A program made the translations under genes and the position numbers. A DNA stretch of 64,000 nucleotides from Crossaster papposus. Taxonomy: Eukaryota > Echinodermata > Asteroidea > Velatida > Solasteridae. Where the stretch lies: contig JBAIAA010000899.1 of the NCBI GenBank assembly GCA_037893245.1, positions 124,001 through 188,000 of the forward strand, given 5' to 3'. Below the pieces are notes generated by a model. It saw only the letters and a list, made by a program, of their open reading frames with translations, searched no databases and was not told the DNA's origin. Position 1 is the first letter of the stretch. Each line of letters opens with the position of its first letter. Shown one piece after another: positions 1 through 64,000 of this stretch.

Positions 1-104
1 ATTTGATCTGATAACAAACAAAAATCACATTTATTATTATGTAAACGGAAAGAAGTGTGCAGTAGAAATAAACACCTGATGTGGGAACAAGCCCTCGAGT
101 TAAA

Positions 105-147
105 TATGTAGTAGTAGGGATATGCCGATTGTAGACCAAATCTTAAA
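105..147 (+). repeat. Representative module B (43 bp)
   Basis: A canonical B monomer. It starts TATGTAGTAGTAGGGATATG, contains CCGATTGTAGACC and ends AAATCTTAAA. About 35% GC. In the composite array it occurs once per block between A and C; from 60526 onward it forms its own tandem array at exactly 43-bp spacing. Its first six bases (TATGTA) and last five (TTAAA) are shared with A. Confidence 0.95.
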
Positions 148-191
148 AAACTCAATTTGATCTGATAACAAAAAAACCTCACCTTTATTAT

Positions 192-258
192 TATGTAAAG
201 GGAAAGAAGTGTGCAGTAGAAATAAACACCTGATGTGGGAACAAGCCCTCGAGTTAAA
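192..258 (+). repeat. Representative module A (67 bp)
   Basis: A canonical A monomer. It starts TATGTAAAGGGAAAGAAG, has AATAAA in its middle, then GATGTGGGAACAAG, and ends CCCTCGAGTTAAA. The CTCGAG near the 3' end is an XhoI site present in most copies. About 40% GC, the highest of the three modules. Head-to-tail A copies are spaced exactly 67 bp. Known variants in the window change GATGTGGG to GATGTCGG, AAAGAAGTG to AAATAAGTG, or CCCTCGAG to CTTTCGAG. Confidence 0.95.
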
Positions 259-2376
259 TATGTAAAGGGAAAGAAGTGTGCAGTAGAAATAAACACCTGA
301 TGTGGGAACAAGCCCTCGAGTTAAATATGTAGTAGTAGGGATATGCCGATTGTAGACCAAATCTTAAAATACTCAATTTGATCTGATAACCAAAAAAACT
401 CACATTTATTATTATGTAAAGGGAAAGAAGTGTGCAGTAGAAATGAACACCTGATGCGGGAACAAGCCATCGAGTTAAATATGTAGTAGTAGGGATATGC
501 CGATTGTAGACCAAATCTTAAAAAACTCAATTTGATCTGATAACAAAAAAAACTCACATTTATTATTATGTAAAGGGAAAGAAGTGTGCAGTAGAAATGA
601 ACACCTGATGTGGGAACAAGCCATCGAGTTAAATATGTAGTAGTAGGGATATGCCGATTGTAGACCAAATCTTAAAAAACTCAATATGATCTGATAACAA
701 AAAAAACTCACATTTATTATTATGTAAAGGGAAAGAAGTGTGCAGTAGAAATAAACACCTGATGTGGGAACAAGCAATCGAGTTAAATATGTAGTAGTAG
801 GGATATGCCGATTGTAGACCAAATCTTAAAAAACTCAATTTGATCTGATAACAAAAAAACCTCACATTTATTATTATGTAAAGGGAAAGAAGTGTGCAGT
901 AGAAATAAACACCTGATGTGGGAACAAGCCCTCGAGTTAAATATGTAGTAGTAGGGATATGCCGATTGTAGACCAAATCTTAAAAAAACTCAATTTGATC
1001 TGATAACAAACCAAAAATCACATTTATTATTATGTAAAGTGAAAGAAGTGTGCAGTAGAAATAAACACCTGATGTGGGAACAAGCCCTCGAGTTAAATAT
1101 GTAGTAGTAGGGATATGCCGATTGTAGACCAAATCTTAAAAAACTCAATTTGATCTGATAACAAACAAAAATCACATTTATTATTATGTAAACGGAAAGA
1201 AGTGTGCAGTAGAAATAAACACCTGATGTGGGAACAAGCCCTCGAGTTAAATATGTAGTAGTAGGGATATGCCGATTGTAGACCAAATCTTAAAAAACTC
1301 AATTTGATCTGATAACAAAAAAAACTCACCTTTATTATTATGTAAAGGGAAAGAAGTGTGCAGTAGAAATAAACACCTGATGTGGGAACAAGCCCTCGAG
1401 TTAAATATGTAAAGGGAAAGAAGTGTGCAGTAGAAATAAACACCTGATGTGGGAACAAGCCCTCGAGTTAAATATGTAGTAGTAGGGATATGCCGATTGT
1501 AGACCAAATCTTAAAATACTCAATTTGATCTGATAACCAAAAAAAATCACATTTATTATTATGTAAAGGGAAAGAAGTGTGCAGTAGAAATGAACACCTG
1601 ATGCGGGAACAAGCCATCGAGTTAAATATGTAGTAGTAGGGATATGCCGATTGTAGACCAAATCTTAAAAAACTCAATTTGATCTGATAACAAAAAAAAC
1701 TCACATTTATTATTATGTAAAGGGAAAGAAGTGTGCAGTAGAAATGAACACCTGATGTGGGAACAAGCCATCGAGTTAAATATGTAGTAGTAGGGATATG
1801 CCGATTGTAGACCAAATCTTAAAAAACTCAATATGATCTGATAACAAAAAAAACTCACATTTATTATTATGTAAAGGGAAAGAAGTGTGCAGTAGAAATA
1901 AACACCTGATGTGGGAACAAGCCCTCGAGTTAAATATGTAGTAGTAGGGATATGCCGATTGTATACCAAATCTTAAAAAACTCAATATGATCTGATAACA
2001 AAAAAAACTCACATTTATTATTATGTAAAGGGAAAGAAGTGTGCAGTAGAAATAAACACCTGATGTGGGAACAAGCCCTCGAGTTAAATATGTAAAGGGA
2101 AAGAAGTGTGCAGTAGAAATAAACACCTGATGTGGGAACAAGCCCTCGAGTTAAATATGTAGTAGTAGGGATATGCCGATTGTAGACCAAATCTTAAAAA
2201 ACTCAATTTGATCTGATAACAAAAAAAAATCACATTTATTATTATGTAAAGGGAAAGCAGTGTGCAGTAGAAATAAACACCTGATGTGGGAACAAGCCCT
2301 CGAGTTAAATATGTAAAGGGAAAGAAGTGTGCAGTAGAAATAAACACCTGATGTGGGAACAAGCCCTCGAGTTAAA

Positions 2377-2463
2377 TATGTAGTAGTAGGGATATGCCGA
2401 TTGTAGACTAAATCTTAAAATATGTAGTAGTAGGGATATGCCGATTGTAGACCAAATCTTAAA
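2377..2463 (+). repeat. B doublet
   Basis: Two B modules in tandem (2377-2420, 44 bp; 2421-2463, 43 bp). The first copy has GACTAAATCTTAAAA instead of GACCAAATCTTAAA, i.e. a substitution and an extra A. It is one of four such doublets in the first 7 kb. Confidence 0.92.
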
Positions 2464-3217
2464 AAACTCAATTTGATCTGATAACAACAAAAACTCACAT
2501 TTATTATTATGTAAAGGGAAAGCAGTGTGCAGTAGAAATAAACACCTGATGTGGGAACAAGCCCTCGAGTTAAATATGTAAAGGGAAAGCAGTGTGCAGT
2601 AGAAATAAACACCTGATGTGGGAACAAGCCCTCGAGTTAAATGTGTAAAGGGAAAGAAGTGTGCAGTAGAAATAAACACCTGATGTTGGAACAAGCCCTC
2701 GAGTTAAATATGTAGTAGTAGGGATATGCCGATTGTAGACCAAATCTTAAAAAACTCAATTTGATCTGATAACAAAAAAAACTCACATTTATTATTATGT
2801 AAAGGGAAAGCAGTGTGCAGTAGAAATAAACACCTGATGTGGGAACAAGCCCTCGAGTTAAATATGTAAAGGGAAAGAAGTGTGCAGTAGAAATAAACAC
2901 CTGATGTGGCAACAAGCCCTCGAGTTAAATATGTAGTAGTAGGGATATGCCGATTGTAGACCAAATCTTAAAAAACTCAATTTGATCTGATAACAAAAAA
3001 ACCTCACATTTATTATTATGTAAAGGGAAAGCAGTGTGCAGTAGAAATAAACACCTGATGTGGGAACAAGCCCTCGAGTTAAATATGTAAAGGGTAAGAA
3101 GTGTGCAGTAGAAATAAACACCTGATGTGGGAGCAAGCCCTCGAGTTAAATATGTAAAGGAAAAGAAGTGTGCAGTAGAAATAAACACCTGATGTGGGAA
3201 CAAGCCCTCGAGTTAAA

Positions 3218-6366: not shown

Positions 6367-7848
6367 AAACTCAATTTGATCTGATAACAAAAAAAACTCA
6401 CATTTATTATTATGTAAAGGGAAAGAAGTGTGCAGTATAAATAAACACCTGATGTGGGGACAAGCCCTGGAGTTAAATATGTAAAGGGAAAGAAGTGTGC
6501 AGTAGAAATAAACACCTGATGTGGGAACAAGCCCTCGAGGTAAATATGTAAAGGGAAAGAAGTGTGCAGTAGAAATACACACCTGATGTGGGAACAAGCC
6601 CTAGAGTTAAATATGTAATGGGAAAGAAGTGTGCAGTAGAAATAAACACCTGATGTGGGAACAAGCCCTAGAGGTAAATATGTAAAGGGAAAGAAGTGTG
6701 CAGTAGAAATAAACACCTGATGTGGGAACATGCCGTCGAGTTAAATATGTAAAGGGAAAGAAGTGTGCAGTAGAAATAAAAACCTGATGTGGGAACAAGC
6801 CCTCGAGTTAAATATGTAAAGGGAAAGAAGTGTGCAGTAGAAATAAACACCTGATGTTGGAACAAGCCCTCGAGTTAAATATGTAGTAGTAGGGATATGC
6901 CGATTGTAGACCAAATCTTAAAAAACTCAATTTGATCTGATAACAAAAAAAACTCACATTTATTATTATGTAAAGGGAAAGAAGTGTGCAGTAGAAATAA
7001 ACACCTGATGTGGGAACAAGCCCTCGAGTTAAATATGTAAAGGGAAAGAAGTGTGCAGTAGAAATAAACAACTGATGTGGGAACAAGCCCTCGAGTTAAA
7101 TATGTAGTAGTAGGGATATGCCGATTGTAGACCAAATCTTAAAAAACTCAATTTGATCTGATAACAACAAAAACTCACATTTATTATTATGTAAAGGGAA
7201 AGAAGTGTGCAGTAGAAATAAACACCTGATGTGGGAACAAGCCCTCGAGTTAAATATGTAAAGGGAAAGAAGTGTGCAGTAGAAATAAACACCTGATGTG
7301 GGAACAAGCCCTCGAGTTAAATATGTAGTAGTAGGGATATGCCGATTGTAGACCAAATCTTAAAAAACTCAATTTTATCTGATAAAACAAAAACCTCACA
7401 TTTATTATTATGTAAAGGGAAAGAAGTGTGCAGTAGAAATAAACACCTGATGTGGGAACAAGCCCTCGAGTTAAATATGTAAAGGGAAAGAAATGTGCAG
7501 TAGAAATAAACACCTGATGTTGGAACAAACCCTGGAGTTAAATATGTAGTAGTGGGGATATGCCGATTGTAGACCAAATCCTAAAAAACTCAATTTGATC
7601 TGATAACAAAAAAACTCACATTTATTATTATGTAAAGGGAAAGAAGTGTGCAGTAGAAATAAACACCTGATGTGGGAACAAGCCCTCGAGTTAAATATGC
7701 AAAGGGAAAGAAGTGTGCAGTATAAATAAACACCTGATGTGGGAACAAGCCCTCGAGTTAAATATGTAGTAGTAGGGATATGCCGATTGTAGACCAAATC
7801 TTAAAAAACTCAATTTGATCTGATAACAAAAAAACTCACATTTATTAT

Positions 7849-8451
7849 TATGTAAAGGGAAAGAAGTGTGCAGTAGAAATAAACACCTGATGTCGGAACA
7901 AGCCCTCGAGTTAAATATGTAAAGGGAAATAAGTGTGCAGTAGAAATAAACACCTGATGTCGGAACAAACCCTCAAGTTAAATATGTAAAGGGAAAGAAG
8001 TGTGCAGTAGAAATAAACACCTGATGTGGGAACAAGCCCTCGAGTTAAATATGTAAAGGGAAAGAAGTGTGCAGTAGAAATAAACACCTGATGTGGGAAC
8101 AAGCCCTCGAGTTAAATATGTAAAGGGAAATAAGTGTGCAGTAGAAATAAACACCTGATGTCGGAACAAGCTTTCGAGTTAAATATGTAAAGGGAAAGAA
8201 GTGTGCAGTAGAAATAAACACCTGATGTCGGGACAAGCCCTCGAGTTAAATATGTAAAGGGAAAGAAGTGTGCAGTAGAAATAAACACCTGATGTCGGAA
8301 CAAGCCCTCGAGTTAAATATGTAAAGGGAAAGAAGTGTGCAGTAGAAATAAACACCTGATGTGGGAACAAGCCCTCGAGTTAAATATGTAAAGGGAAAGA
8401 AGTGTGCAGCAGAAATAAACACCTGATGTGGGAACAAGCCCTCGAGTTAAA
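7849..8451 (+). repeat. Run of 9 A modules
   Basis: 603 bp = 9 x 67 inside copy 1 of the 1284-bp duplication. It mixes GATGTGGG and GATGTCGG copies and includes one CAAGCTTTCGAG copy, which makes a HindIII site and loses XhoI. Confidence 0.93.
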
Positions 8452-9132
8452 TATGTAGTAGTAGTGATATGCCGATTGTAGACCAAATCTTAAAAAACTC
8501 AATTTGATCTGATAACAACAAAAACTCACATTTATTATTATGTAAAGGGAAAGAAGTGTGCAGTAGAAATAAACACCTGATGTGGGAACAAGCCCTCGAG
8601 TTAAATATGTAGTAGTAGGGATATGCCGATTGTAGACCAAATCTTAAAAAACTCAATTTTATCTGATAAAACAAAAACCTCACATTTATTATTATGTAAA
8701 GGGAAAGAAGTGTGCAGTAGAAATAAACACCTGATGTGGGAACAAGCCCTCGAGTTAAATATGTAAAGGGAAAGAAATGTGCAGTAGAAATAAACACCTG
8801 ATGTTGGAACAAACCCTGGAGTTAAATATGTAGTAGTGGGGATATGCCGATTGTAGACCAAATCCTAAAAAACTCAATTTGATCTGATAACAAAAAAACT
8901 CACATTTATTATTATGTAAAGGGAAAGAAGTGTGCAGTAGAAATAAACACCTGATGTGGGAACAAGCCCTCGAGTTAAATATGCAAAGGGAAAGAAGTGT
9001 GCAGTATAAATAAACACCTGATGTGGGAACAAGCCCTCGAGTTAAATATGTAGTAGTAGGGATATGCCGATTGTAGACCAAATCTTAAAAAACTCAATTT
9101 GATCTGATAACAAAAAAACTCACATTTATTTT

Positions 9133-9735
9133 TATGTAAAGGGAAAGAAGTGTGCAGTAGAAATAAACACCTGATGTCGGAACAAGCCCTCGAGTTAAAT
9201 ATGTAAAGGGAAATAAGTGTGCAGTAGAAATAAACACCTGATGTCGGAACAAACCCTCAAGTTAAATATGTAAAGGGAAAGAAGTGTGCAGTAGAAATAA
9301 ACACCTGATGTGGGAACAAGCCCTCGAGTTAAATATGTAAAGGGAAAGAAGTGTGCAGTAGAAATAAACACCTGATGTGGGAACAAGCCCTCGAGTTAAA
9401 TATGTAAAGGGAAATAAGTGTGCAGTAGAAATAAACACCTGATGTCGGAACAAGCTTTCGAGTTAAATATGTAAAGGGAAAGAAGTGTGCAGTAGAAATA
9501 AACACCTGATGTCGGGACAAGCCCTCGAGTTAAATATGTAAAGGGAAAGAAGTGTGCAGTAGAAATAAACACCTGATGTCGGAACAAGCCCTCGAGTTAA
9601 ATATGTAAAGGGAAAGAAGTGTGCAGTAGAAATAAACACCTGATGTGGGAACAAGCCCTCGAGTTAAATATGTAAAGGGAAAGAAGTGTGCAGCAGAAAT
9701 AAACACCTGATGTGGGAACAAGCCCTCGAGTTAAA
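9133..9735 (+). repeat. Run of 9 A modules
   Basis: 603 bp = 9 x 67, the copy-2 counterpart of the run at 7849 with the same order of variants. Confidence 0.93.
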
Positions 9736-9822
9736 TATGTAGTAGTAGTGATATGCCGATTGTAGACCAAATCTTAAAAAACTCAATTTGATCTGATAAC
9801 AACAAAAACTCACATTTATTAT

Positions 9823-12805
9823 TATGTAAAGGGAAAGAAGTGTGCAGTAGAAATAAACACCTGATGTGGGAACAAGCCCTCGAGTTAAATATGTAAAGGG
9901 AAAGAAGTGTGCAGTAGAAATAAACACCTGATGTGGGAACAAGCCCTCGAGTTAAATATGTAGTAGTAGGGATATGCCGATTGTAGACCAAATCTTAAAA
10001 AAATCAATTTGATCTGATAACAAAAAAAATCACATTTATTATTATGTAAAGGGAAAGAAGTTTGCAGTAGAAATAAACACCTGATGTGGGAACAAGCCCT
10101 CGAGTTAAATATGTAGTAGTAGGGATATGCCGATTGTAGACCAAATCTTAAAAAACTCAATTTGATCTGATAACAAAAAAACCTCACATGTATTATTATG
10201 TAAAGGGAAAGAAGTGTGCAGTAGAAATAAACACCTGATGTGGGAGAAAGCCCTCGAGTTAAATATGTAGTAGTAGGGATATGCCGATTGTAGACAAAAT
10301 CTCAAAAAACTCAATTTGATCTGATAAAACAAAAACCTCACATTTATTATTATGTAAAGGGAAAGAAGTGTGCAGTAGAAATAAACACCTGATGTGGGAA
10401 CAAGCCCTCGAGTTAAATATGTAAAGGGAAAGAAGTGTGCAGTAGAAATAAACACCTGATGTGGGAACAAGCCCTCGAGTTAAATATGTAGTAGTAGGGA
10501 TATGCCGATTGTAGACCAAATCTTAAAAAACTAAATTTGATCTGATAACAAAACAAACTCACATTTATTATTATGTAAAGGGTAAAAAGTGTGCAGTAGA
10601 AATAAGCACCTGATGTGGGAACAAGCCCTCGAGTTAAATATGTAAAGGGAAAGAAGTGTGCAGTAGAAATAAACACCTGATGTGGGAGAAAGCCCTCGAG
10701 TTAAATATGTAGTAGTAGGGATATGCCGATTGTAGACAAAATCTCAAAAAACTCAATTTGATCTGATAAAACAAAAACCTCACATTTATTATTATGTAAA
10801 GGGAAAGAAGTGTGCAGTAGAAATAAACACCTGATGTGGGAACAAGCCCTCGAGTTAAATATGTAAAGGGAAATAAGTGTGCAGTAGAAATAAACACCTG
10901 ATGTGGGAACAAGCCCTCGAGTTAAATATGTAGTAGTAGGGATATGCCGATTGTAGACCAAATCTTAAAAAACTCAATTTGATCTGATAACAAAACAAAC
11001 TCACATTTATTATTATGTAAAGGGTAAAAAGTGTGCAGTAGAAATAAGCACCTGATGTGGGAACAAGCCCTCGAGTTAAATATGTAAAGGGAAAGAAGTG
11101 TGCAGTAGAAATATACACCTGATGTGGGAACAAGCCCTCGAGTTAAATATGTAAAGGGAAAGAAGTGTGCAGTAGAAATAAACACCTGATGTGGACAAAA
11201 GCCCTCGAGTTAAATATGTAGTAGTAGGGATATGCCGATTGTAGACAAAATCTCAAAAAACTCAATTTGATCTGATAACAAAAAAACTCACATTTATTAT
11301 TATGTAAAGGGAAAGAAGTGTGCAGTAGAAATAAACACCTGATGTCGGAACAAGCCCTCGAGTTAAATATGTAAAGGGAAAGAAGTGTGCAGTAGAAATA
11401 AACACCTGATGTCGGAACAAGCCCTCGAGTTAAATATGTAAAGGGAAAGAAGTGTGCAGTAGAAATAAACACCTGATGTGGGAACAAGCCCTCGAGTTAA
11501 ATATGTAAAGGGAAAGAAGTGTGCAGTAGAAATAAACACCTGATGTGGGAAGAAGCCCTCGAGTTAAATATGTAGTAGTAGGGATATGCCGATTGTAGAC
11601 CAAATCTTAAAAAACTCAATTTGATCTGATAACAAAAAAAGCTCACATGTATTATTATGTAAAGGGAAAGAAGTGTGCAGTAGAAATAAACACCTGATGT
11701 GGGAACAAGCCCTCGAGTTAAATATGTAAAGGGAAAGAAGTGTGCAGTAGAAATAAACACCTAATGTGGGAACAAGCCCTCGAGTTAAATATGTAGTAGT
11801 AGGGATATGCCGATTGTAGACCAAATCTTAAAAAACTCAATTTGATCTGATAACAAAAAAACTAACATTTATTATTATGTAAAGGGAAAGAAGTGTGCAG
11901 TATAAATAAACAACTGATGTGGGAACAAGCCCTCGAGTTAAATATGTAAAGGGAAAGAAGTGTGCAGTAGAAATAAACACCTGATGTCGGAACAAGCCCT
12001 CGAGTTAAATATGTACAGGGAAATAAGTGTGCAGTAGAAATAAACACCTGATGTCGGAACAAGCTTTCGAGTTAACTATGTAAAGGGAAAGAAGTGTGCA
12101 GTAGAAATAAACACCTGATGTCGTAACAAGCCCTCGAGTTAAATATGTAAAGGGAAAGAAGTGTGCAGTATAAATAAACACCTGATGTGGGAACAAGCCC
12201 TCGAGTTAAACATGTAAAGGGAAAGAAGTGTGCAGTAGAAATAAACACCTGATGTAGGAACAAGCCCTCGAGTTAAATATGTAGTAGTAGGGATATGCCG
12301 ATTGTAGACCAAATCTTAAAAAAATCAATTTGATCTGATAACAAACAAAACTCACATTTATTATTATGTAAAGGGAAAGAAGTGTGCAGTAGAAATAAAC
12401 ACCTGATGTGGGAACAAGCCCTCGAGTTAAATATGTAAAGGGAAAGAAGTGTGCAGTAGAAATAAACAACTGATGTGGGAACAAGCCCTCGAGTTAAATA
12501 TGTAGTAGTAGGGATATGCCGATTGTAGACCAAATCTTAAAAAACCCAATTTGATCTGATAACAACAAAAACTCACATTTATTATTATGTAAAGGGAAAG
12601 AAGTGTGCAGTAAAAATAAACACCTGATGTTGGAACAAGCCCTCGAGTTAAATATGTAAAGGGAAAGAAGTGTGCAGTAGAAATAAACACCTGATGTGGG
12701 AACAAGCCCTGGAGTTAAATATGTAGTAGTAGGAATATGCCGATTGTAGACCAAATCCTAAAAAACTCAATTTGATCTGATAACAAAAAAACTCACATTT
12801 ATTAT
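9823..12805 (+). repeat. Mixed composite region with 442-bp repeat
   Basis: A1BC to A6BC blocks. Sequence of about 10230-10650 recurs about 442 bp later (two 221-bp blocks), marked by GTGGGAGAAAGCCC, GACAAAATCTCAAAA, the C1 linker, then GGTAAAAAGTG and AAATAAGCACC. Two A runs lie here: 11301-11568 (4 copies) and 11876-12277 (6 copies). GTGGGAAGAAGCCC and GTGGACAAAAGCCC are private A variants. Confidence 0.85.
11876..12277 (+). repeat. Run of 6 A modules
   Basis: 402 bp = 6 x 67. It contains GATGTCGG copies, one CAAGCTTTCGAG copy followed by GTTAACTATG, and one GATGTAGG copy. The same ordered set recurs in the 3297-bp duplication, so the two are related. Confidence 0.92.
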
Positions 12806-14041
12806 TATGTAAAGGGAAAGAAGTGTGCAGTAGAAATAAACACCTGATGTGGGAACAAGCCCTCGAGTTAAATATGTAAAGGGAAAGAAGTGTGCAGTAG
12901 AAATAATCACCTGATGTGGGAACAAGCCCTCGAGTTAAATATGTAGTAGTAGGGATATGCCGATTGTAGACCAAATCTTAAAAAACTCAATTTGATCTGA
13001 TAACAAAAAAACCTCACATTTATTATTATGTAAAGGGAAAGAAGTGTGCAGTAGAAATAAACACCTGATGTGGGAACAAGCCCTCGAGTTAAATATGTAA
13101 AGGGAAAGAAGTGTGCAGTAGAAATTAACAACTGATGTGGGAACAATCCCTCGAGTTAAATATGCAGTAGTAGGGATATGTCGATTGTAGACCAAATCTT
13201 AAAAAACTCAATTTGATCTGATAACAACAAAAACTCACATTTATTATTATGTAAAGGGAAATAAGTGTGCAGTAGAAATAAACACCTGATGTGGGAACAA
13301 GCCCTCGAGTTAAATATGTAAAGGGAAAGAAGTGTGCAGTAGAAATAAACACCTGATGTGGGAACAAGCCCTCGAGTTAAATATGTAAAGGGAAAGAAGT
13401 GTGCAGTAGAAATAAACACCTGATGTGGGAAAAAGCTCGAGTTAAATATGTAGTAGTAGGGATATGCCGATTGTAGACAAAATCTCAAAAAACTCAATTT
13501 GATCTGATAAAACAAAAACCTCACATTTATTATTATGTAAAAGGAAAGAAGTGTGCAGTAGAAATAAACACCTGATGTGGGAACAAGCCCTCGTGTTAAA
13601 TATGTAAAGGGAAAGAAGTGTGCAGTAGAAATAAACACCTGATGTGGGAACAAGCCCTCGAGTTAAATATGTAGTAGTAGGGATATGCCGATTGTAGACC
13701 AAATCTTAAAAAACTCAATTTGATCTGATAACAAAACAAACTCACATTTATTATTATGTAAAGGGTAAAAAGTGTGCAGTAGAAATAAACACCTGATGTG
13801 GGAACAAGCCCTCGAGTTAAATATGTAAAGGGAAAGAAGTGTGCAGTAGAAATAAACACCTGATGTGGGAACAAGCCCTCGAGTTAAATATGTAAAGGGA
13901 AAGAAGTGTGCAGTAGAAATAAACACCTGATGTGGGAAAAAGCCCTCGAGTTAAATATGTAGTAGTAGGGATATGCCGATTGTAGACAAAATCTCAAAAA
14001 ACTCAATTTGATCTGATAACAAAAAAACTCACATTTATTAT

Positions 14042-14510
14042 TATGTAAAGGGAAAGAAGTGTGCAGTAGAAATAAACACCTGATGTCGGAACAAGCCCTC
14101 GAGTTAAATATGTAAAGGGAAAGAAGTGTGCAGTAGAAATAAACACCTGATGTCGGAACAAGCCCTCGAGTTAAATATGTAAAGGGAAAGAAGTGTGTAG
14201 TAGAAATAAACACCTGATGTGGGAACAAGCCCTCGAGTTAAATATGTAAAGGGAAATAAGTGTGCAGTAGAAATAAACACCTGATGTCGGAACAAGCTTT
14301 CGAGTTAACTATGTAAAGGGAAAGAAGTGTGCAGTAGAAATAAACACCTGATGTCGGAACAAGCCCTCGAGTTAAATATGTAAAGGGAAAGAAGTGTGCA
14401 GTAGAAATAAACACCTGATGTGGGAACAAGCCCTCGAGTTAAACATGTAAAGGGAAAGAAGTGTGCAGTAGAAATAAACACCTGATGTAGGAACAAGCCC
14501 TCGAGTTAAA
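14042..14510 (+). repeat. Run of 7 A modules
   Basis: 469 bp = 7 x 67 in copy 1 of the 3297-bp duplication; its counterpart is at 17339-17807. It has GATGTCGG copies, one CAAGCTTTCGAG copy and GTTAAACATG junctions. Confidence 0.92.
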
Positions 14511-15392
14511 TATGTAGTAGTAGGGATATGCCGATTGTAGACCAAATCTTAAAAAACTCAATTTGATCTGATAACAAACAAAACTCACATTTATTATTAT
14601 GTAAAGGGAAAGAAGTGTGCAGTAGAAATAAACACCTGATGTGGGAACAAGCCCTCGAGTTAAACATGTAAAGGGAAAGAAGTGTGCAGTAGAAATAAAC
14701 ACCTGATGTAGGAACAAGCCCTCGAGTTAAATATGTAGTAGTAGGAATATGCCGATTGTAGACCAAATCTTAAAAAACTCAATTTGATCTGATAACAAAC
14801 AAAACTCACATTTATTATTATGTAAAGGGAAAGAAGTGTGCAGTAGAAATAAACACCTGATGTGGGAACAAGCCCTCGAGTTAAATATGTAAAGGGAAAG
14901 AAGTGTGCAGTAGAAATAAACACCTGATGTGGGAAAAAGCCCTCGAGTTAAATATGTAGTAGTAGGGATATGCCGATTGTAGACAAAATCTCAAAAAACT
15001 CAATTTGATCTGATAACAAAAAAACTCACATTTATTATTATGTAAAGGGAAAGAAGTGTGCAGTAGAAATAAACACCTGATGTCGGAACAAGCCCTCGAG
15101 TTAAATATGTAAAGGGAAAGAAGTGTGCAGTAGAAATAAACACCTGATGTCGGAACAAGCCCTCGAGTTAAATATGTAAAGGGAAAGAAGTGTGTAGTAG
15201 AAATAAACACCTGATGTGGGAACAAGCCCTCTAGTTAAATATGTAAAGGGAAAGAAGTGTGCAGTAGAAATAAACACCTGATGTGGGAACAAGCCCTCGA
15301 GTTAAATATGTAGTAGTAGGGATATGCCGATTGTAGACCAAATCTTAAAAAACTCAATTTGATCTGATAACAAAAAAACTCACATTTAGTAT

Positions 15393-15794
15393 TATGTAAA
15401 GGGAAAGAAGTGTGCAGTATAAATAAACACCTGATGTGGGAACAAGCCCTCGAGTTAAATATGTAAAGGGAAAGAAGTGTGCAGTAGAAATAAACACCTG
15501 ATGTCGGAACAAGCCCTCGAGTTAAATATGTAAAGGGAAATAAGTGTACAGTAGAAATAAACACCTGATGTCGGAACAAGCTTTCGAGTTAACTATGTAA
15601 AGGGAAAGAAGTGTGCAGTAGAAATAAACACCTGATGTCGGAACAAGCCCTCGAGTTAAATATGTAATGGGAAAGAAGTGTGCAGTAGAAATAAACACCT
15701 GATGTGGGAACAAGCCCTCGAGTTAAACATGTAAAGGGAAAGAAGTGTGCAGTAGAAATAAACACTTGATGTAGGAACAAGCCCTCGAGTTAAA
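15393..15794 (+). repeat. Run of 6 A modules
   Basis: 402 bp = 6 x 67, preceded by a C with CATTTAGTATTAT. It includes GTGTACAG, CAAGCTTTCGAG, TAATGGG and CACTTGATG variants. Its counterpart is at 18690-19091. Confidence 0.91.
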
Positions 15795-17338
15795 TATGTA
15801 GTAGTAGGGATATGCCGATTGTAGACCAAATCTTAAAAAACTCAATTTGATCTGATAACAAACAAAACTCACATTTATTATTATGTAAAGGGAAAGAAGT
15901 GTGCAGTAGAAATAAACACCTGATGTGGGAACAAGCCCTCGAGTTAAATATGTAAAGGGAAAGAAGTGTGCAGTAGAAATAAACAACTGATGTGGGAACA
16001 AGCCCTCGAGTTAAATATGTAGTAGTAGGGATATGCCGATTGTAGACCAAATCTTAAAAAAATCAATTTGATCTGATAACAACAAAAACTCACATTTATT
16101 ATTATGTAAAGGGAAAGAAGTGTGCAGTAGAAATAAACACCTGATGTGGGAACAAGCCCTCGAGTTAAATATGTAAAGGGAAAGAAGTGTGCAGTAGAAA
16201 TAATCACCTGATGTGGGAACAAGCCCTCGAGTTAAATATGTAGTAGTAGGGATATGCCGATTGTAGACCAAATCTTAAAAAACTCAATTTGATCTGATAA
16301 CAAAAAAACCTCACATTTATTATTATGTAAAGGGAAAGAAGTGTGCAGTAGAAATAAACACCTGATGTGGGAACAAGCCCTCGAGTTAAATATGTAAAGG
16401 GAAAGAAGTGTGCAGTAGAAATTAACAACTGATGTGGGAACAATCCCTCGAGTTAAATATGCAGTAGTAGGGATATGTCGATTGTAGACCAAATCTTAAA
16501 AAACTCAATTTGATCTGATAACAACAAAAACTCACATTTATTATTATGTAAAGGGAAATAAGTGTGCAGTAGAAATAAACACCTGATGTGGGAACAAGCC
16601 CTCGAGTTAAATATGTAAAGGGAAAGAAGTGTGCAGTAGAAATAAACACCTGATGTGGGAACAAGCCCTCGAGTTAAATATGTAAAGGGAAAGAAGTGTG
16701 CAGTAGAAATAAACACCTGATGTGGGAAAAAGCTCGAGTTAAATATGTAGTAGTAGGGATATGCCGATTGTAGACAAAATCTAAAAAAACTCAATTTGAT
16801 CTGATAAAACAAAAACCTCACATTTATTATTATGTAAAAGGAAAGAAGTGTGCAGTAGAAATAAACACCTGATGTGGGAACAAGCCCTCGTGTTAAATAT
16901 GTAAAGGGAAAGAAGTGTGCAGTAGAAATAAACACCTGATGTGGGAACAAGCCCTCGAGTTAAATATGTAGTAGTAGGGATATGCCGATTGTAGACCAAA
17001 TCTTAAAAAACTCAATTTGATCTGATAACAAAACAAACTCACATTTATTATTATGTAAAGGGTAAAAAGTGTGCAGTAGAAATAAACACCTGATGTGGGA
17101 ACAAGCCCTCGAGTTAAATATGTAAAGGGAAAGAAGTGTGCAGTAGAAATAAACACCTGATGTGGGAACAAGCCCTCGAGTTAAATATGTAAAGGGAAAG
17201 AAGTGTGCAGTAGAAATAAACACCTGATGTGGGAAAAAGCCCTCGAGTTAAATATGTAGTAGTAGGGATATGCCGATTGTAGACAAAATCTCAAAAAACT
17301 CAATTTGATCTGATAACAAAAAAACTCACATTTATTAT

Positions 17339-17807
17339 TATGTAAAGGGAAAGAAGTGTGCAGTAGAAATAAACACCTGATGTCGGAACAAGCCCTCGAG
17401 TTAAATATGTAAAGGGAAAGAAGTGTGCAGTAGAAATAAACACCTGATGTCGGAACAAGCCCTCGAGTTAAATATGTAAAGGGAAAGAAGTGTGTAGTAG
17501 AAATAAACACCTGATGTGGGAACAAGCCCTCGAGTTAAATATGTAAAGGGAAATAAGTGTGCAGTAGAAATAAACACCTGATGTCGGAACAAGCTTTCGA
17601 GTTAACTATGTAAAGGGAAAGAAGTGTGCAGTAGAAATAAACACCTGATGTCGGAACAAGCCCTCGAGTTAAATATGTAAAGGGAAAGAAGTGTGCAGTA
17701 GAAATAAACACCTGATGTGGGAACAAGCCCTCGAGTTAAACATGTAAAGGGAAAGAAGTGTGCAGTAGAAATAAACACCTGATGTAGGAACAAGCCCTCG
17801 AGTTAAA
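17339..17807 (+). repeat. Run of 7 A modules
   Basis: 469 bp, the copy-2 counterpart of the run at 14042. Confidence 0.92.
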
Positions 17808-18689: not shown

Positions 18690-19091
18690 TATGTAAAGGG
18701 AAAGAAGTGTGCAGTATAAATAAACACCTGATGTGGGAACAAGCCCTCGAGTTAAATATGTAAAGGGAAAGAAGTGTGCAGTAGAAATAAACACCTGATG
18801 TCGGAACAAGCCCTCGAGTTAAATATGTAAAGGGAAATAAGTGTACAGTAGAAATAAACACCTGATGTCGGAACAAGCTTTCGAGTTAACTATGTAAAGG
18901 GAAAGAAGTGTGCAGTAGAAATAAACACCTGATGTCGGAACAAGCCCTCGAGTTAAATATGTAATGGGAAAGAAGTGTGCAGTAGAAATAAACACCTGAT
19001 GTGGGAACAAGCCCTCGAGTTAAACATGTAAAGGGAAAGAAGTGTGCAGTAGAAATAAACACTTGATGTAGGAACAAGCCCTCGAGTTAAA
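18690..19091 (+). repeat. Run of 6 A modules
   Basis: 402 bp, the copy-2 counterpart of the run at 15393. Confidence 0.9.
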
Positions 19092-39997: not shown

Positions 39998-40041
39998 AAA
40001 CTCAATTTGATCTGATAAAACAAAAACCTCACATGTATTAT
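39998..40041 (+). repeat. Chimeric C module (C1 left, C2 right)
   Basis: Same C1/C2 chimera as at 35394. It sits at the start of the shortened 731-bp unit of the 951-bp array, where one 221-bp block is missing, linking the chimera to a length change. Confidence 0.83.
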
Positions 40042-53955: not shown

Positions 53956-56900
53956 TATGTAAAGGGAAAGAAGTGTGCAGTAGAAATAAACACCTGATGT
54001 GGGAACAAGCCCTCGAGTTAAATATGTAGTAGTAGGGATATGCCGATTGTAGACCAAATCTTAAAAAACTCAATTTGATCTGATAAAACAAAAACCTCAC
54101 ATTTATTATTATGTAAAGGGAAAGAAGTGTGCAGTAGAAATAAACACCTGATGTGGGAACAAGCCCTCGAGTTAAATATGTAAAGGGAAAGAAATGTGCA
54201 GTAGAAATAAACACCTGATGTGGGAACAAGCCCTGGAGTTAAATATGTAGTAGTAGGGATATGCCGATTGTAGACCAAATCTTAAAAAACTCAATTTGAT
54301 CTGATAACAAAAAAAACTCACATGTATTATTATGTAAAGGGAAAGAAGTGGGCAGTAGAAATAAACACCTGATGTGGGAACAATCCCTCGAGTTAAATAT
54401 GTAAAGGGAAAGAAGTGTGCAGTAGAAATAACCACCTGATGTGGGAACAAGCCCTCGAGTTAAATATGTAAAGGGAAAGAAGTGTGCAGTAGAAATAAAC
54501 ACCTGATGTGGGAACAAGCCCTCGAGATAAATATGTAGTAGTAGGGATATGCCGATTGTAGACCAAATCTTAAAAAAACTCAATTTGATCTGATAACAAA
54601 ACAAACTCACATTTATTATTATGTAAAGGGAAATAAGTGTGCAGTAGAAATAAACACATGATGTGGGAACAAGCCCTCGAGTTAAATATGTAAAGGGAAA
54701 GAAGTGTGCAGTAGAAATAAACACCTGATGTGGGAACAAGCCCTCGAGTTAAATATGTAAAAGGAAAGAAGTGTGCAGTAGAAATAAACACCTGATGTGG
54801 GAACAAGCCCTCGAGTTAAATATGTAGTAGTAGGGATATGCCGATTGTAGACCAAATCTTAAAAAACTCAATTTGATCTGATAACAAAAAAACCTCACAT
54901 GTATTATTATGTAAAGGGAAAGAAGTGTGAAGTAGAAATAAACATCTGATGTGGGAACAAGCCCTCGAGTTAAATATGTAAAGGGAAAGAAGTGTGCAGT
55001 AGAAATAAACACCTGATGTGGGAACAAGCCATCGAGTTAAATATGTAGTAGTAGGGATATGCCGATTGTAGACCAAATCTTAAAAAACTCAATTTGATCT
55101 GATAAAACAAAAACCTCACATTTATTATTATGTAAGAGAAAGAAGTGTGCAGTAGAAATAAACACCTGATGTGGGAACAAGCCCTCGAGTTAAATATGTA
55201 AAGGGAAAGAAATGTGCAGTAGAAATAAACACCTGATGTGGGAACAAGCCCTCGAGTTAAATATGTAGTAGTAGGGATATGCCGATTGTAGACCAAATCT
55301 TAAAAAACTCAATTTGATCTGATAACAAAAAAACCTCACATGTATTATTATGTAAAGGGAAAGAAGTGTGCAGTAGAAATAAACACCTGATGTGGGAACA
55401 AGCCCTCGAGTTAAATATGTAAAGGGAAAGAAGTGTGCAGTAGAAATAAACACCTGATGTGGGAACAAGCCCTCGAATTAAATATGTAAAGGGAAAGAAG
55501 TGTGCAGTAGAAATAAACACCTGATGTGGGAACAAGCCCTCGAGTTAAATATGTAGTAGTAGGGATATGCCGATTGTAGACCAAATCTTAACAAACTCAA
55601 TTTGATCTGATAACAAAACAAACTCACATTTATTATTATGTAAAGGGAAATAAGTGTGCAGTAGAAATAAACACCTGATGTGGGAACAAGCCCTCGAGTT
55701 AAATATGTAAAGGGAAAGAAGTGTGCAGTAGAAATAAACACCTGATGTGGGAACAAGCCCTCGAGTTAAATATGTAGTAGTAGGGATATGCCGATTGTAG
55801 ACCAAATCTTAAAAAACTCAATTTGATCTGATAAAACAAAAACCTCACATTTATTATTATGTAAAGGGAAAGAAGTGTGCAGTAGAAATAAACACCTGAT
55901 GTGGGAACAAGCCCTCGAATTAAATATGTAAAGGGAAAGAAGTGTGCAGTAGAAATAAACACCTGATGTGGGAACAAGCCCTCGAGTTAAATATGTAGTA
56001 GTAGGGATATGCCGATTGTAGACCAAATCTTAAAAAACTCAATTTGATCTGATAAAACAAAAACCTCACATTTATTATTATGTAAAGGGAAAGAAGTGTG
56101 CAGTAGAAATAAACACCTGATGTGGGAACAAGCCCTCGAGTTAAATATGTAAAGGGAAAGAAATGTGCAGTAGAAATAAACACCTGATGTGGGAACAAGC
56201 CCTGGAGTTAAATATGTAGTAGTAGGGATATGCCGATTGTAGACCAAATCTTAAAAAACTCAATTTGATCTGATAACAAAAAAAACTCACATGTATTATT
56301 ATGTAAAGGGAAAGAAGTGGGCAGTAGAAATAAACACCTGATGTGGGAACAATCCCTCGAGTTAAATATGTAAAGGGAAAGAAGTGTGCAGTAGAAATAA
56401 CCACCTGATGTGGGAACAAGCCCTCGAGTTAAATATGTAAAGGGAAAGAAGTGTGCAGTAGAAATAAACACCTGATGTGGGAACAAGCCCTCGAGATAAA
56501 TATGTAGTAGTAGGGATATGCCGATTGTAGACCAAATCTTAAAAAAACTCAATTTGATCTGATAACAAAACAAACTCACATTTATTATTATGTAAAGGGA
56601 AATAAGTGTGCAGTAGAAATAAACACATGATGTGGGAACAAGCCCTCGAGTTAAATATGTAAAGGGAAAGAAGTGTGCAGTAGAAATAAACACCTGATGT
56701 GGGAACAAGCCCTCGAGTTAAATATGTAAAAGGAAAGAAGTGTGCAGTAGAAATAAACACCTGATGTGGGAACAAGCCCTCGAGTTAAATATGTAGTAGT
56801 AGGGATATGCCGATTGTAGACCAAATCTTAAAAAACTCAATTTGATCTGATAACAAAAAAACCTCACATGTATTATTATGTAAAGGGAAAGAAGTGTGAA

Positions 56901-57893
56901 GTAGAAATAAACATCTGATGTGGGAACAAGCCCTCGAGTTAAATATGTAAAGGGAAAGAAGTGTGCAGTAGAAATAAACACCTGATGTGGGAACAAGCCA
57001 TCGAGTTAAATATGTAGTAGTAGGGATATGCCGATTGTAGACCAAATCTTAAAAAACTCAATTTGATCTGATAAAACAAAAACCTCACATTTATTATTAT
57101 GTAAGAGAAAGAAGTGTGCAGTAGAAATAAACACCTGATGTGGGAACAAGCCCTCGAGTTAAATATGTAAAGGGAAAGAAATGTGCAGTAGAAATAAACA
57201 CCTGATGTGGGAACAAGCCCTCGAGTTAAATATGTAGTAGTAGGGATATGCCGATTGTAGACCAAATCTTAAAAAACTCAATTTGATCTGATAACAAAAA
57301 AACCTCACATGTATTATTATGTAAAGGGAAAGAAGTGTGCAGTAGAAATAAACACCTGATGTGGGAACAAGCCCTCGAGTTAAATATGTAAAGGGAAAGA
57401 AGTGTGCAGTAGAAATAAACACCTGATGTGGGAACAAGCCCTCGAATTAAATATGTAAAGGGAAAGAAGTGTGCAGTAGAAATAAACACCTGATGTGGGA
57501 ACAAGCCCTCGAGTTAAATATGTAGTAGTAGGGATATGCCGATTGTAGACCAAATCTTAACAAACTCAATTTGATCTGATAACAAAACAAACTCACATTT
57601 ATTATTATGTAAAGGGAAATAAGTGTGCAGTAGAAATAAACACCTGATGTGGGAACAAGCCCTCGAGTTAAATATGTAAAGGGAAAGAAGTGTGCAGTAG
57701 AAATAAACACCTGATGTGGGAACAAGCCCTCGAGTTAAATATGTAGTAGTAGGGATATGCCGATTGTAGACCAAATCTTAAAAAACTCAATTTGATCTGA
57801 TAAAACAAAAACCTCACATTTATTATTATGTAAAGGGAAAGAAGTGTGCAGTAGAAATAAACACCTGATGTGGGAACAAGCCCTCGAATTAAA
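53956..57893 (+). repeat. 1969-bp tandem duplication, apparently identical
   Basis: Copy 1 is 53956-55924 and copy 2 is 55925-57893. Every stretch compared has the same bases, including rare changes: AAGTGGGCAG, AATAACCACC, CTCGAGATAAATATG, GTGTGAAGTAG, AACATCTGATG, TATGTAAGAGAAAG and CTCGAATTAAA. I found no difference by eye. A partial third copy follows. Either very recent amplification or an assembly duplication. Confidence 0.88.
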
Positions 57894-60525
57894 TATGTAA
57901 AGGGAAAGAAGTGTGCAGTAGAAATAAACACCTGATGTGGGAACAAGCCCTCGAGTTAAATATGTAGTAGTAGGGATATGCCGATTGCAGACCAAATCTT
58001 AACAAACTCAATTTGATCTGATAACAAAACAAACTCACATTTATTATTATGTAAAGGGAAATAAGTGTGCAGTAGAAATAAACACCTGATGTGGGAACAA
58101 GCCCTCGAGTTAAATATGTAAAGGGAAAGAAGTGTGCAGTAGAAATAAACACCTGATGTGGGAACAAGCCCTCGAGTTAAATATGTAGTAGTAGGGATAT
58201 GCCGATTGTAGACCAAATCTTAAAAAACTCAATTTGATCTGATAAAACAAAAACCTCACATTTATTATTATGTAAAGGGAAAGAAGTGTGCAGTAGAAAT
58301 AAACACCTGATGTGGGAACAAGCCCTCGAGTTAAATATGTAAAGGGAAAGAAGTGTGCAGTAGAAATAAACACCTGATGTGGGAACAAGCCCTCGAGTTA
58401 AATATGTAGTAGTAGGGATATGCCGATTGTAGACCAAATCTTAAAAAACTCAATTTGATCTGATAAAACAAAAACCTCACATTTATTATTATGTAAAGGG
58501 AAATAAGTGTGCAGTAGAAATAAACACCTGATGTGGGAACAAGCCCTCGAGTTAAATATGTAAAGGGAAAGAAATGTGCAGTAGAAATAAACACCTGATG
58601 TGGGAACAAGCCCTCGAGTTAAATATGTAGTAGTAGGGATATGCCGATTGTAGACCAAATCTTAAAAAACTCAATTTGATCTGATAACAAAAAAACCTCA
58701 CATGTATTATTATGTAAAGGGAAAGAAGTGTGCAGTAGAAATAAACACCTGATGTGGGAACAAGCCCTCGAGTTAAATATGTAAAGGGAAAGAAGTGTGC
58801 AGTAGAAATAACCACCTGATGTGGGAACAAGCCCTCGAGTTAAATATGTAAAGGGAAAGAAGTGTGCAGTAGAAATAAACACCTGATGTGGGAACAAGCC
58901 CTCGAGATAAATATGTAGTAGTAGGGATATGCCGATTGTAGACCAAATCTTAAAAAAACTCAATTTGATCTGATAACAAAACAAACTCACATTTATTATT
59001 ATGTAAAGGGAAATAAGTGTGCAGTAGAAATAAACACATGATGTGGGAACAAGCCCTCGAGTTAAATATGTAAAGGGAAAGAAGTGTGCAGTAGAAATAA
59101 ACACCTGATGTGGGAACAAGCCCTCGAGTTAAATATGTAAAAGGAAAGAAGTGTGCAGTAGAAATAAACACCTGATGTGGGAACAAGCCCTCGAGTTAAA
59201 TATGTAGTAGTAGGGATATGCCGATTGTAGACCAAATCTTAAAAAACTCAATTTGATCTGATAACAAAAAAACCTCACATGTATTATTATGTAAAGGGAA
59301 AGAAGTGTGCAGTAGAAATAAACATCTGATGTGGGAACAAGCCCTCGAGTTAAATATGTAAAAGGAAAGAAGTGTGCAGTAGAAATAAACACCTGATGTG
59401 GGAACAAGCCCTCGAGTTAAATATGTAGTAGTAGGGATATGCCGATTGTAGACCAAATCTTAAAAAACTCAATTTGATCTGATAACAAAAAAACCTCACA
59501 TGTATTATTATGTAAAGGGAAAGAAGTGTGCAGTAGAAATAAACACCTGATGTGGGAACAAGCCATCGAGTTAAATATGTAGTAGTAGGGATATGCCGAT
59601 TGTAGACCAAATCTTAAAAAACTCAATTTGATCTGATAAAACAAAAACCTCACATTTATTATTATGTAAGAGAAAGAAGTGTGCAGTAGAAATAAACACC
59701 TGATGTGGGAACAAGCCCTCGAGTTAAATATGTAAAGGGAAAGAAATGTGCAGTAGAAATAAACACCTGATGTGGGAACAAGCCCTCGAGTTAAATATGT
59801 AGTAGTAGGGATATGCCGATTGTAGACCAAATCTTAAAAAACTCAATTTGATCTGATAACAAAAAAACCTCACATGTATTATTATGTAAAGGGAAAGAAG
59901 TGTGCAGTAGAAATAAACACCTGATGTGGGAACAAGCCCTCGAGTTAAATATGTAAAGGGAAAGAAGTGTGCAGTAGAAATAAACACCTGATGTGGGAAC
60001 AAGCCCTCGAATTAAATATGTAAAGGGAAAGAAGTGTGCAGTAGAAATAAACACCTGATGTGGGAACAAGCCCTCGAGTTAAATATGTAGTAGTAGGGAT
60101 ATGCCGATTGTAGACCAAATCTTAACAAACTCAATTTGATCTGATAACAAAACAAACTCACATTTATTATTATGTAAAGGGAAATAAGTGTGCAGTAGAA
60201 ATAAACACCTGATGTGGGAACAAGCCCTCGAGTTAAATATGTAAAGGGAAAGAAGTGTGCAGTAGAAATAAACACCTGATGTGGGAACAAGCCCTCGAGT
60301 TAAATATGTAGTAGTAGGGATATGCCGATTGTAGACCAAATCTTAAAAAACTCAATTTGATCTGATAACAAAAAAACCTCACATGTATTATTATGTAAAG
60401 GGAAAGAAGTGTGCAGTAGAAATAAACACCTGATGTGGGAACAAGCCCTCGAGTTAAATATGTAAAGGGAAAGAAGTGTGCAGTAGAAATAAACACCTGA
60501 TGTGGGAACAAGCCCTCGAGTTAAA
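57894..60525 (+). repeat. Partial third copy of the 1969-bp unit
   Basis: About 58.6-59.3 kb matches 56.2-56.9 kb at 2411-bp spacing and about 59.6-60.3 kb matches 57.0-57.7 kb at 2565-bp spacing; the difference is one inserted 154-bp A1BC-size block. Markers include AATAACCACC, TATGTAAGAGAAAG (about 59665) and CTCGAATTAAA (about 60006). The composite array ends here. Confidence 0.85.
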
Positions 60526-62641
60526 TATGTAGTAGTAGGGATATGCCGATTGTAGACCAAATCTTAAATATGTAGTAGTAGGGATATGCCGATTGTAGAC
60601 CAAATCTTAAATATGTAGTAGTAGGGATATGCCGATTGTAGACCAAATCTTAAATATGTAGTAGTAGGGATATGCCGATTGTAGACCAAATCTTAAATAT
60701 GTAGTAGTAGGGATATGCCGATTGTAGACCAAATCTTAAATATGTAGTAGTAGGGATATGCCGATTGTAGACCAAATCTTAAATATGTAGTAGTAGGTAT
60801 ATGCCGATTGTAGACCAAATCTTAAATATGTAGTAGTAGGGATATGCCGATTGTAGACCAAATCTTAAATATGTAGTAGTAGTAGGGATATGCCGATTGT
60901 AGACCAAATCTTAAATATGTAGTAGTAGGGATATGCCGATTGTAGACCAAATCTTAAATATGTAGTAGTAGGGATATGCCGATTGTAGACCAAATCTTAA
61001 ATATGTAGTAGTAGGGATATGCCGATTGTAGACCAAATCTTAAATATGTAGTAGTAGGGATATGCCGATTGTAGACCAAATCTTAAATATGTAGTAGTAG
61101 GGATATGCCGATTGTAGACCAAATCTTAAATATGTAGTAGTAGGGATATGCCGATTGTAGACCAAATCTTAAATATGTAGTAGTAGGGATATGCCGATTG
61201 TAGACCAAATCTTAAATATGTAGTAGTAGGGATATGCCGATTGTAGACCAAATCTTAAATATGTAGTAGTAGGTATATGCCGATTGTAGACCAAATCTTA
61301 AATATGTAGTAGTAGGGATATGCCGATTGTAGACCAAATCTTAAATATGTAGTAGTAGTAGGGATATGCCGATTGTAGACCAAATCTTAAATATGTAGTA
61401 GTAGGGATATGCCGATTGTAGACCAAATCTTAAATATGTAGTAGTAGGGATATGCCGATTGTAGACCAAATCTTAAATATGTAGTAGTAGGGATATGCCG
61501 ATTGTAGACCAAATCTTAAATATGTAGTAGTAGGGATATGCCGATTGTAGACCAAATCTTAAATATGTAGTAGTAGGGATATGCCGATTGTAGACCAAAT
61601 CTTAAATATGTAGTAGTAGGGATATGCCGATTGTAGACCAAATCTTAAATATGTAGTAGTAGGTATATGCCGATTGTAGACCAAATCTTAAATATGTAGT
61701 AGTAGGGATATGCCGATTGTAGACCAAATCTTAAATATGTAGTAGTAGGGATATGCCGATTGTAGACCAAATCTTAAATATGTAGTAGTAGGGATATGCC
61801 GATTGTAGACCAAATCTTAAATATGTAGTAGTAGGGATATGCCGATTGTAGACCAAATCTTAAATATGTAGTAGTAGGGATATGCCGATTGTAGACCAAA
61901 TCTTAAATATGTAGTAGTAGGGATATGCCGATTGTAGACCAAATCTTAAATATGTAGTAGTAGGGATATGCCGATTGTAGACCAAATCTTAAATATGTAG
62001 TAGTAGGGATATGCTGATTGTAGACCAAATCTTAAATATGTAGTAGTAGGGATATGCCGATTGTAGACCAAATCTTAAATATGTAGTAGTAGGGATATGC
62101 CGATTGTAGACCAAATCTTAAATATGTAGTAGTAGGGATATGCCGATTGTAGACCAAATCTTAAATATGTAGTAGTAGGGATATGCCGATTGTAGACCAA
62201 ACCTTAAATATGTAGTAGTAGGGATATGCCGATTGTAGACCAAATCTTAAATATGTAGTAGTAGTAGGGATATGCCGATTGTAGACCAAATCTTAAATAT
62301 GTAGTAGTAGGGATATGCCGATTTTAGACCAAATCTTAAATATGTAGTAGTAGGGATATGCCGATTGTAGACCAAATCTTAAATATGTAGTAGTAGGGAT
62401 ATGCCGATTGTAGACCAAATCTTAAATATGTAGTAGTAGGGATATGCCGATTGTAGACCAAATCTTAAATATGTAGTAGTAGGGATATGCCGATTGTAGA
62501 CCAAATCTTAAATATGTAGTAGTAGGGATATGCCGATTGTAGACCAAATCTTAAATATGTAGTAGTAGGGATATGCCGATTGTAGACCAAATCTTAAATA
62601 TGTAGTAGTAGGGATATGCCGATTGTAGACCAAATCTTAAA
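60526..62641 (+). repeat. Tandem array of 49 B modules
   Basis: 2116 bp = 49 x 43 + 9; the nine extra bases are three units with one additional TAG (starting at 60870, 61346 and 62252). GTAGGTATATG variants lie near 60795, 61271 and 61661. The first two markers of each kind are 476 bp apart (10 x 43 + 46), showing an 11-unit higher-order repeat at the left end. Confidence 0.95.
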
Positions 62642-62752
62642 AAACTCAATTTGATCTGATAACAAAACAAATTCACATTTATTATTATGTAAAGGGAAAG
62701 AAGTGTGCAGTAGAAATAAACACCTGATGTGGGAACAAGCCCTCGAGTTAAA
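62642..62752 (+). repeat. Single C-A pair inside the B array
   Basis: C (62642-62685) with AACAAAACAAATTCACATTT, then one A (62686-62752). The AAATTCAC form of C was seen only here and at 63398. The following B starts TTTGTAGTAG instead of TATGTAGTAG and ends ATCTGAAA. Confidence 0.94.
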
Positions 62753-63397
62753 TTTGTAGTAGTAGGGATATGCCGATTGTAGACCAAATCTGAAATATGT
62801 AGTAGTAGGGATATGCCGATTGTAGACCAAATCTTAAATATGTAGTAGTAGGGATATGCCGATTGTAGACCAAATCTTAAATATGTAGTAGTAGGGATAT
62901 GCCGATTGTAGACCAAATCTTAAATATGTAGTAGTAGGGATATGCCGATTGTAGACCAAATCTTAAATATGTAGTAGTAGGTATATGCCGATTGTAGACC
63001 AAATCTTAAATATGTAGTAGTAGGAATATGCCGATTGTAGACCAAATCTTAAATATGTAGTAGTAGGGATATGCCGATTGTAGACCAAATCTTAAATATG
63101 TAGTAGTAGGGATATGCCGATTGAAGACCAAATCTTAAATATGTAGTAGTAGGGATATGCCGATTGTAGACCAAATCTTAAATATGTAGTAGTAGGGATA
63201 TGCCGATTGTAGACCAAATCTTAAATATGTAGTAGTAGGGATATGCCGATTGTAGACCAAATCTTAAATATGTAGTAGTAGGGATATGCCGATTGTAGAC
63301 CAAATCTTAAATATGTAGTAGTAGGGATATGCCGATTGTAGACCAAATCTTAAATATGTAGTAGTAGGGATATGCCGATTGTAGACCAAATCTTAAA
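62753..63397 (+). repeat. Tandem array of 15 B modules
   Basis: 645 bp = 15 x 43. Private variants: TTTGTAG start (62753), ATCTGAAA end (first unit), GTAGGTATATG (about 62979), GTAGGAATATG (about 63021) and GATTGAAGACC (about 63120). Confidence 0.95.
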
Positions 63398-63508
63398 AAA
63401 CTCAATTTGATCTGATAACAAAACAAATTCACATGTATTATTATGTAAAGGGAAAGAAGTGTGCAGTAGAAATAAACACCTGATGTGGGAACAAGCCCTC
63501 GAGTTAAA
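63398..63508 (+). repeat. Second single C-A pair inside the B array
   Basis: C (63398-63441) with AACAAAACAAATTCACATGT, then one A (63442-63508). It shares AAATTCAC with the pair at 62642, 756 bp upstream, so the two are probably duplicates; they differ at CATTT versus CATGT. Confidence 0.94.
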
Positions 63509-64000
63509 TATGTAGTAGTAGGGATATGCCGATTGTAGACCAAATCTTAAATATGTAGTAGTAGGGATATGCCGATTGTAGACCAAATCTTAAATATGTA
63601 GTAGTAGGGATATGCCGATTGTAGACCAAATCTTAAATATGTAGTAGTAGGGATATGCCGATTGTAGACCAAATCTTAAATATGTAGTAGTAGGGATATG
63701 CCGATTGTAGACCAAATCTTAAATATGTAGTAGTAGGGATATGCCGATTGTAGACCAAATCTTAAATATGTAGTAGTAGGTATATGCCGATTGTAGACCA
63801 AATCTTAAATATGTAGTAGTAGGGATATGCCGATTGTAGACCAAATCTTAAATATGTAGTAGTAGGGATATGCCGATTGTAGACCAAATCTTAAATATGT
63901 AGTAGTAGGGATATGCCGATTGTAGACCAAATCTTAAATATGTAGTAGTAGGGATATGCCGATTGTAGACCAAATCTTAAATATGTAGTAGTAGGGATAT
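63509..64000 (+). repeat. Tandem array of 11 B modules and a part unit
   Basis: 492 bp = 11 x 43 + 19, cut by the window end. One GTAGGTATATG variant lies near 63778, 799 bp from the one at 62979. Confidence 0.95.

Follow-up and report, generated by a model that had tools for sequence, protein, structure and literature searches.

A three-module satellite array with only five junction types in a 64-kb window of Crossaster papposus

In a stretch of 64,000 nucleotides from Crossaster papposus (contig JBAIAA010000899.1, positions 124,001 to 188,000; here the window, with coordinates counted from its first base), satellite modules of three kinds, A, B and C, follow one another in the strict order (A)n-(B)m-C-A. 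This order is probably a record of the junctions that were ever founded in the array: a series of A-B-C units in which A>A and B>B joints arose, and which thereafter changed by homologous exchange. Joint types form a closed set because exchange between matched modules keeps both flanking junctions, and this closure under homologous exchange means that the order needs just an A-B-C unit and the founding of A>A and B>B.

For the decomposition, a dynamic programme was supplied with module models (A of 67 bp, B of 44 bp, C of 43 bp) and charged every step from one module to another equally. This order-free procedure resolves the whole 64 kb (1..64000) into 1,144 modules (609 A, 306 B and 229 C), which tile all 64,000 bases head to tail on the + strand, without other sequence; TRF reports periods of 67, 154, 221 and 43 over the window. 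A modules are 65-68 bp long, B modules 43-45 and C modules 42-44, apart from a first C of 37 and a last B of 19, cut at the window start and end, respectively. Copies differ from the module models by a mean of 1.09 (A), 0.62 (B) and 1.88 (C) edits, with a maximum of 6, and modules of modal length have mean identities to consensus of 0.957-0.984. The window is therefore satellite DNA in the usual sense: closely similar units repeat head to tail on one strand over 64 kb. By reading of the sequence and the module models, an example of A (67 bp) lies at 38..104, flanked by C and B, and is followed by a B of 44 bp at 105..148 and a C of 43 bp at 149..191, which together form a unit with a computed length of 154 bp. 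The first A>A pair comes directly after it, at 192..325 (A 192-258, A 259-325), where TRF detects a 67-bp period over 192-331. These and all features described below are on the + strand.

Only five junction types occur among the 1,143 joints of this decomposition: A>A (380), A>B (229), B>B (77), B>C (228) and C>A (229). Random order with equal composition would be expected to yield 162.9 B>A, 121.9 A>C, 45.8 C>C and 61.3 C>B joints, and the order-free decomposition of the 64-kb window has none of any of these. A first-pass annotation, made by reading the sequence, had proposed the (A)n-(B)m-C-A order and named module decomposition with a table of transitions as the way to check it; within the window, that table upholds the rule, with none of the four absent types. 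C is single throughout, with B before it and A after it, as had been claimed, and B>A and A>C are missing as stated, together with C>B, which had gone unmentioned. The annotated copy-number ranges, 1-12 for A and 1-49 for B, are reproduced exactly by the run-length count, although the description of B as a multiplying module needs qualification, only 7 of 229 B runs holding more than one B. A direct pattern search of the window found no match to any absent joint type on the + strand at up to 2 edits, and no joint of any type on the - strand at up to 4. With 4 edits allowed on the + strand, five of seven absent-joint patterns do match (B>A 317 and 9 times, A>C 173 and 11, C>B 157), whereas neither of the two C>C patterns does; these 4-edit matches, which were not inspected singly, are taken as allowed joints caught by the looser matching.

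The first-pass annotation had further held that simple exchange would not obviously give such an order. This stands for exchange that is blind to homology and falls for exchange between matching modules, as seen in simulations of a 600-module array in which rates, size and offsets were chosen by the analyst and founding of the C>C/B>A pair was left out. Under homology-blind exchange, each of the 200 simulated arrays showed all nine junction types within 300 steps, and this mode was rejected as an explanation. When exchange was confined to matching modules, none of 200 arrays gained any absent type over 3,000 exchange steps, a test that ran mostly on founder-less arrays because single founders were mostly lost (in single-founder simulations A>A was left in 1 of 200 arrays and B>B in 3 of 200, never both).

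Selection, or a sequence-specific signal such as protein binding that requires the A-B-C order, could also hold modules in place, and an order without exception in 1,143 joints is what such a constraint would leave. The A module contains short motifs reminiscent of factor sites: TGTGGGAA (500 occurrences), CACCTG (553) and AATAAACA (578) are found on the + strand, in most A modules, and each is absent from the - strand. They resemble Su(H)/CSL, E-box and forkhead sites, a resemblance that is likely due to chance. Copy numbers, however, range widely, from 1 to 12 for A and from 1 to 49 for B, and closure accounts for the order without selection. Furthermore, the CENP-B core, TTCGNNNNANNCGGG, characteristic of CENP-B-box satellites, has no exact match on either strand of the window, and an Rfam scan of 1-8000 gave no match. 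An order kept by selection or by such a signal is a very improbable explanation.

The sequences at the joints bear on how the two additional junction types may have been founded. Each junction type falls at one module position, with the exception of B>B, which has two forms, and point variants bring the number of distinct 28-base forms to 19 to 41 per type. The commonest joints (the slash marking the module boundary) are GTTAAA/TATGTAAAGG for A>A, GTTAAA/TATGTAGTAG for A>B, TTATTAT/TATGTAAAGG for C>A and CTTAAAA/AACTCAA for B>C. The six joints that are not parental in an A-B-C array form three reciprocal pairs, namely A>A/C>B, B>B/A>C and C>C/B>A. For the first pair, the longest stretch in common near the two boundaries is TATGTA (6 bp, 67 apart), which is also the unit's longest exact repeat once spacings of 26 bp or less are disregarded; for the second it is TTAAA (5 bp, 43 apart), one of nine 5-bp repeats of the unit at spacings of 30 or more; and the ends of C, which would serve the third, have only TTA (3 bp) in common. 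Among 14,630 position pairs at least 30 bp apart, 0.1% share at least 6 bases and 0.83% share at least 5. The two doubled segments are thus the two that have short repeats at their ends, a correspondence that is good for A and suggestive for B, because TTAAA is one of nine such repeats.

Taken together with the block duplications described below, the demonstrated junction counts, joint positions, short repeats at the joints and closure are the observations from which we infer an A-B-C ancestor, an order of events and a recombination pathway. The array would have begun as an ordinary satellite with a 154-bp basic unit, A-B-C. An early illegitimate exchange at TATGTA, at copies 67 bp apart, would have doubled A and founded A>A, and another at TTAAA, at copies 43 bp apart, would have doubled B and founded B>B. 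Later growth, shrinkage and homogenisation would have proceeded by exchange between matching modules, through unequal crossing over or out-of-register break-induced replication, such that numbers of A and B shift and whole blocks are copied while no new junction type appears. C would have stayed single because C>C was never founded.

The multiple B runs are confined to two parts of the window, four doublets before 6.4 kb and runs after 60526. The 44-bp form of the B>B joint, CTTAAAA/TATGTAG, accounts for 4 joints, which are those of the four doublets between 2377 and 6367 (2377..2464, 3218-3305, 5727-5814 and 6280-6367). In the first B of all four, T replaces the second C of GACCAAATC, and this common variant makes it probable that the doublets derive from one event. 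The 43-bp form, CTTAAA/TATGTAG, is seen at 73 joints, three of them with an extra GTA, and makes up the long runs: one of 49 B at 60526..62642, of which 36 are identical, one of 15 at 62753..63398, and one of 12 at 63509..64000, whose last B is cut at the window end. Two joint forms, together with the variant common to the doublets, suggest that B>B was founded once or twice. The long B runs look as if they had expanded recently. Among the classes compared, their copies (60526-64000) show the least variation, with a pi of 0.0081 over 67 copies of modal length.

Exchange in register has left visible traces in the form of four tandem block duplications of 17-57 modules, with lags of 951-3,297 bp, identified by a block search that covered starts up to 60500 and tolerated a few differing modules. 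The largest, at 12806..19687, has a lag of 3,297 bp, or 57 modules, and includes stretches of 2,661 and 699 bp that recur exactly at that lag; the others lie at 53956..57960 (lag 1,969 bp, 35 modules, with an exact repeat of 2,068 bp), 7255..9889 (1,284 bp, 22 modules) and 38053..39998 (951 bp, 17 modules). Exact repeat pairs of at least 400 bp number 82, the longest being of 2,661 bp, when 150-base words that occur 60 times or more are skipped. Exact repeats as long as 2,661 and 2,068 bp, as well as long B runs, are prone to error in assembly, and collapsed or misjoined repeats could in principle have generated the run lengths or the block duplications. Such an artefact is very improbable, given that the related blocks have private variants and differences between copies; the five-junction rule, which extends over 1,143 joints, is in any case independent of the larger layout.

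A runs of four or more are confined to the region from 3349 to about 33960, and from there to 60.5 kb A runs hold 1-3 copies. One of the two longest, with 12 A, extends over 28392..29195 (its end calculated as 12 x 67), and the other begins at 33156. The A variant series of these two long runs match at most positions. The runs at 27347, 28392 and 33156 open with the same four-module series twice over, as judged at three variable sites, and have a variant series in common in which modules have been changed, gained or lost. Within single A runs of the window, the search turned up no tandem block of differing A variants, whether exact or near-exact. Mean identity between A copies is nearly flat with distance (0.9708 at lag 1 and 0.9705 at lag 400), and homogenisation is therefore not only local. 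In comparisons of up to 150 of about 200 copies per class, identity is 0.9792 between first copies, 0.9685 between last copies and 0.9729 between first and last. A variant tied to position is found at A site 18, where A is present in 18% of last copies and in none of the first, in runs of at least two.

The diversity of A evokes a different history, in which a 67-bp A satellite existed first and took one B-C insertion, after which A-B-C units spread. The putative insert would measure 81 bp, with TATGTA on both sides in the manner of a 6-bp target-site duplication, and it has no obvious terminal inverted repeats by eye. Over the window, A copies inside runs of at least 6 form the A class of highest diversity (pi 0.0438, as compared to 0.0156-0.0293 for first, last and single copies and both A of AABC, the lowest value being that of the first A of AABC), and just 5 of 44 internal haplotypes of long A runs recur in runs of 1-3, both of which would fit an older A array. 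Internal A diversity nevertheless falls from 0.0418 at 2.5-34 kb to 0.0092 at 34-60.5 kb, and, once its A/C-rich stretch is set aside, C has a diversity close to that of first A (pi 0.0229 and 0.0216, respectively), so that B-C does not look clearly younger. An A-first origin is unlikely on these data, and as it would leave the same junction types and the same closure, sequence alone cannot separate the two histories. C itself is the most variable module, chiefly in the A/C-rich stretch at positions 21-29; in addition, its site 37 varies between T and G, G being present in 26% of the 195 C copies that are 43 bp long.

Under the preferred reading, of an A-B-C array with founded A>A and B>B joints, the frequency with which each joint should appear can be compared with simulation. 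When duplications and deletions were founded equally, mean joint shares were 0.0033 for A>A, 0.0052 for B>B, 0.0027 for C>B and 0.0031 for A>C; no extra joint was present in 66 of 200 arrays, and A>A and B>B were the only additions in 7 of 200, a frequency matched by two other pairs. The real shares (380 A>A and 77 B>B among 1,143) are far above the simulated ones. The neutral model does not account for the lack of C>B and A>C, the deletion joints, which arose in simulation about as often as the duplications. Chance may be enough to explain their absence from one array, and a bias toward duplication, for example through break-induced replication, is possible. PMC8997354 presents unequal exchange as favouring neither duplications nor deletions, with growth needing some further force. 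It is quite unlikely, though worth stating, that the missing C>B and A>C joints, reciprocal to A>A and B>B, reflect duplication that was one-sided, for which break-induced replication or rolling-circle reinsertion would be candidates, or else the loss of units without A or B. If this were true, the array would preserve evidence for telling growth by replication apart from reciprocal crossing over.

Several searches and side observations concern the nature of the sequence itself. A tRNA search returned nothing, and no match was obtained in an exact scan of viral contigs with part of A and part of B, in an exact scan of genome contigs with the end of A plus the start of the next module, in a distant-similarity blastn search of plasmids and phages with 1862-2600, or in a search of the full text of 5.39 million papers with four module strings. 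As these are viral and prokaryotic collections and paper texts, the misses say little about eukaryotic satellites. The titles and opening parts of abstracts of the papers retrieved contained no recognisable description of the array, which is filed as an unnamed satellite of ordinary kind. Folding of one 154-base stretch gave a z-score of 1.31, no better than shuffles. The + strand is purine-rich throughout (62.5% A+G), with a GC skew of 0.22-0.31 and an AT skew of 0.10-0.28 in 4-kb steps. There are 66 ORFs of at least 100 aa, all on the - strand, the longest of 188 aa; they were taken to be not genes but, probably, frames that the repeat leaves open.

Internal subrepeats in variable number are also a feature of rDNA spacers. 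Such spacers adjoin rRNA genes; in the present window, which is array throughout, the Rfam scan of 1-8000 gave no match. In VfSat8 of Vicia faba the subrepeats are irregular, as reported in PMC5895790. The present array is like VfSat8 in that an internal segment varies in number while the remainder of the unit is single, and differs from both VfSat8 and rDNA spacers in that two different segments are amplified in one unit. The excerpts of PMC8997354 describe the work of Smith (1976), in which satellite arrays evolve by unequal exchange: a tandem duplication is founded without extensive homology, and is followed by growth, shrinkage and homogenisation as matching copies exchange out of register. 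The array resembles that picture, with the difference that two different segments were doubled within one unit, which makes the joint types countable and sortable into reciprocal pairs. For alpha satellite higher-order repeats, the same excerpts give unequal exchange or break-induced replication as the explanation. Here, too, multi-module blocks are copied as one; unlike in alpha satellite, A, B and C are, on inspection, not divergent versions of a single monomer, AABC copies show no clear split into first and last A classes, and the CENP-B core has no exact match.

The choice between reciprocal and replication-based growth of satellites is described as unsettled in the excerpts of PMC8997354. 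The array illustrates neatly how satellite modules can come to stand in an order that looks strict through homologous exchange and a few founding duplications, with no further rule. Junction types sorted into reciprocal pairs, and counted in other arrays, would provide a test of reciprocal crossing over against one-sided, replication-based duplication.
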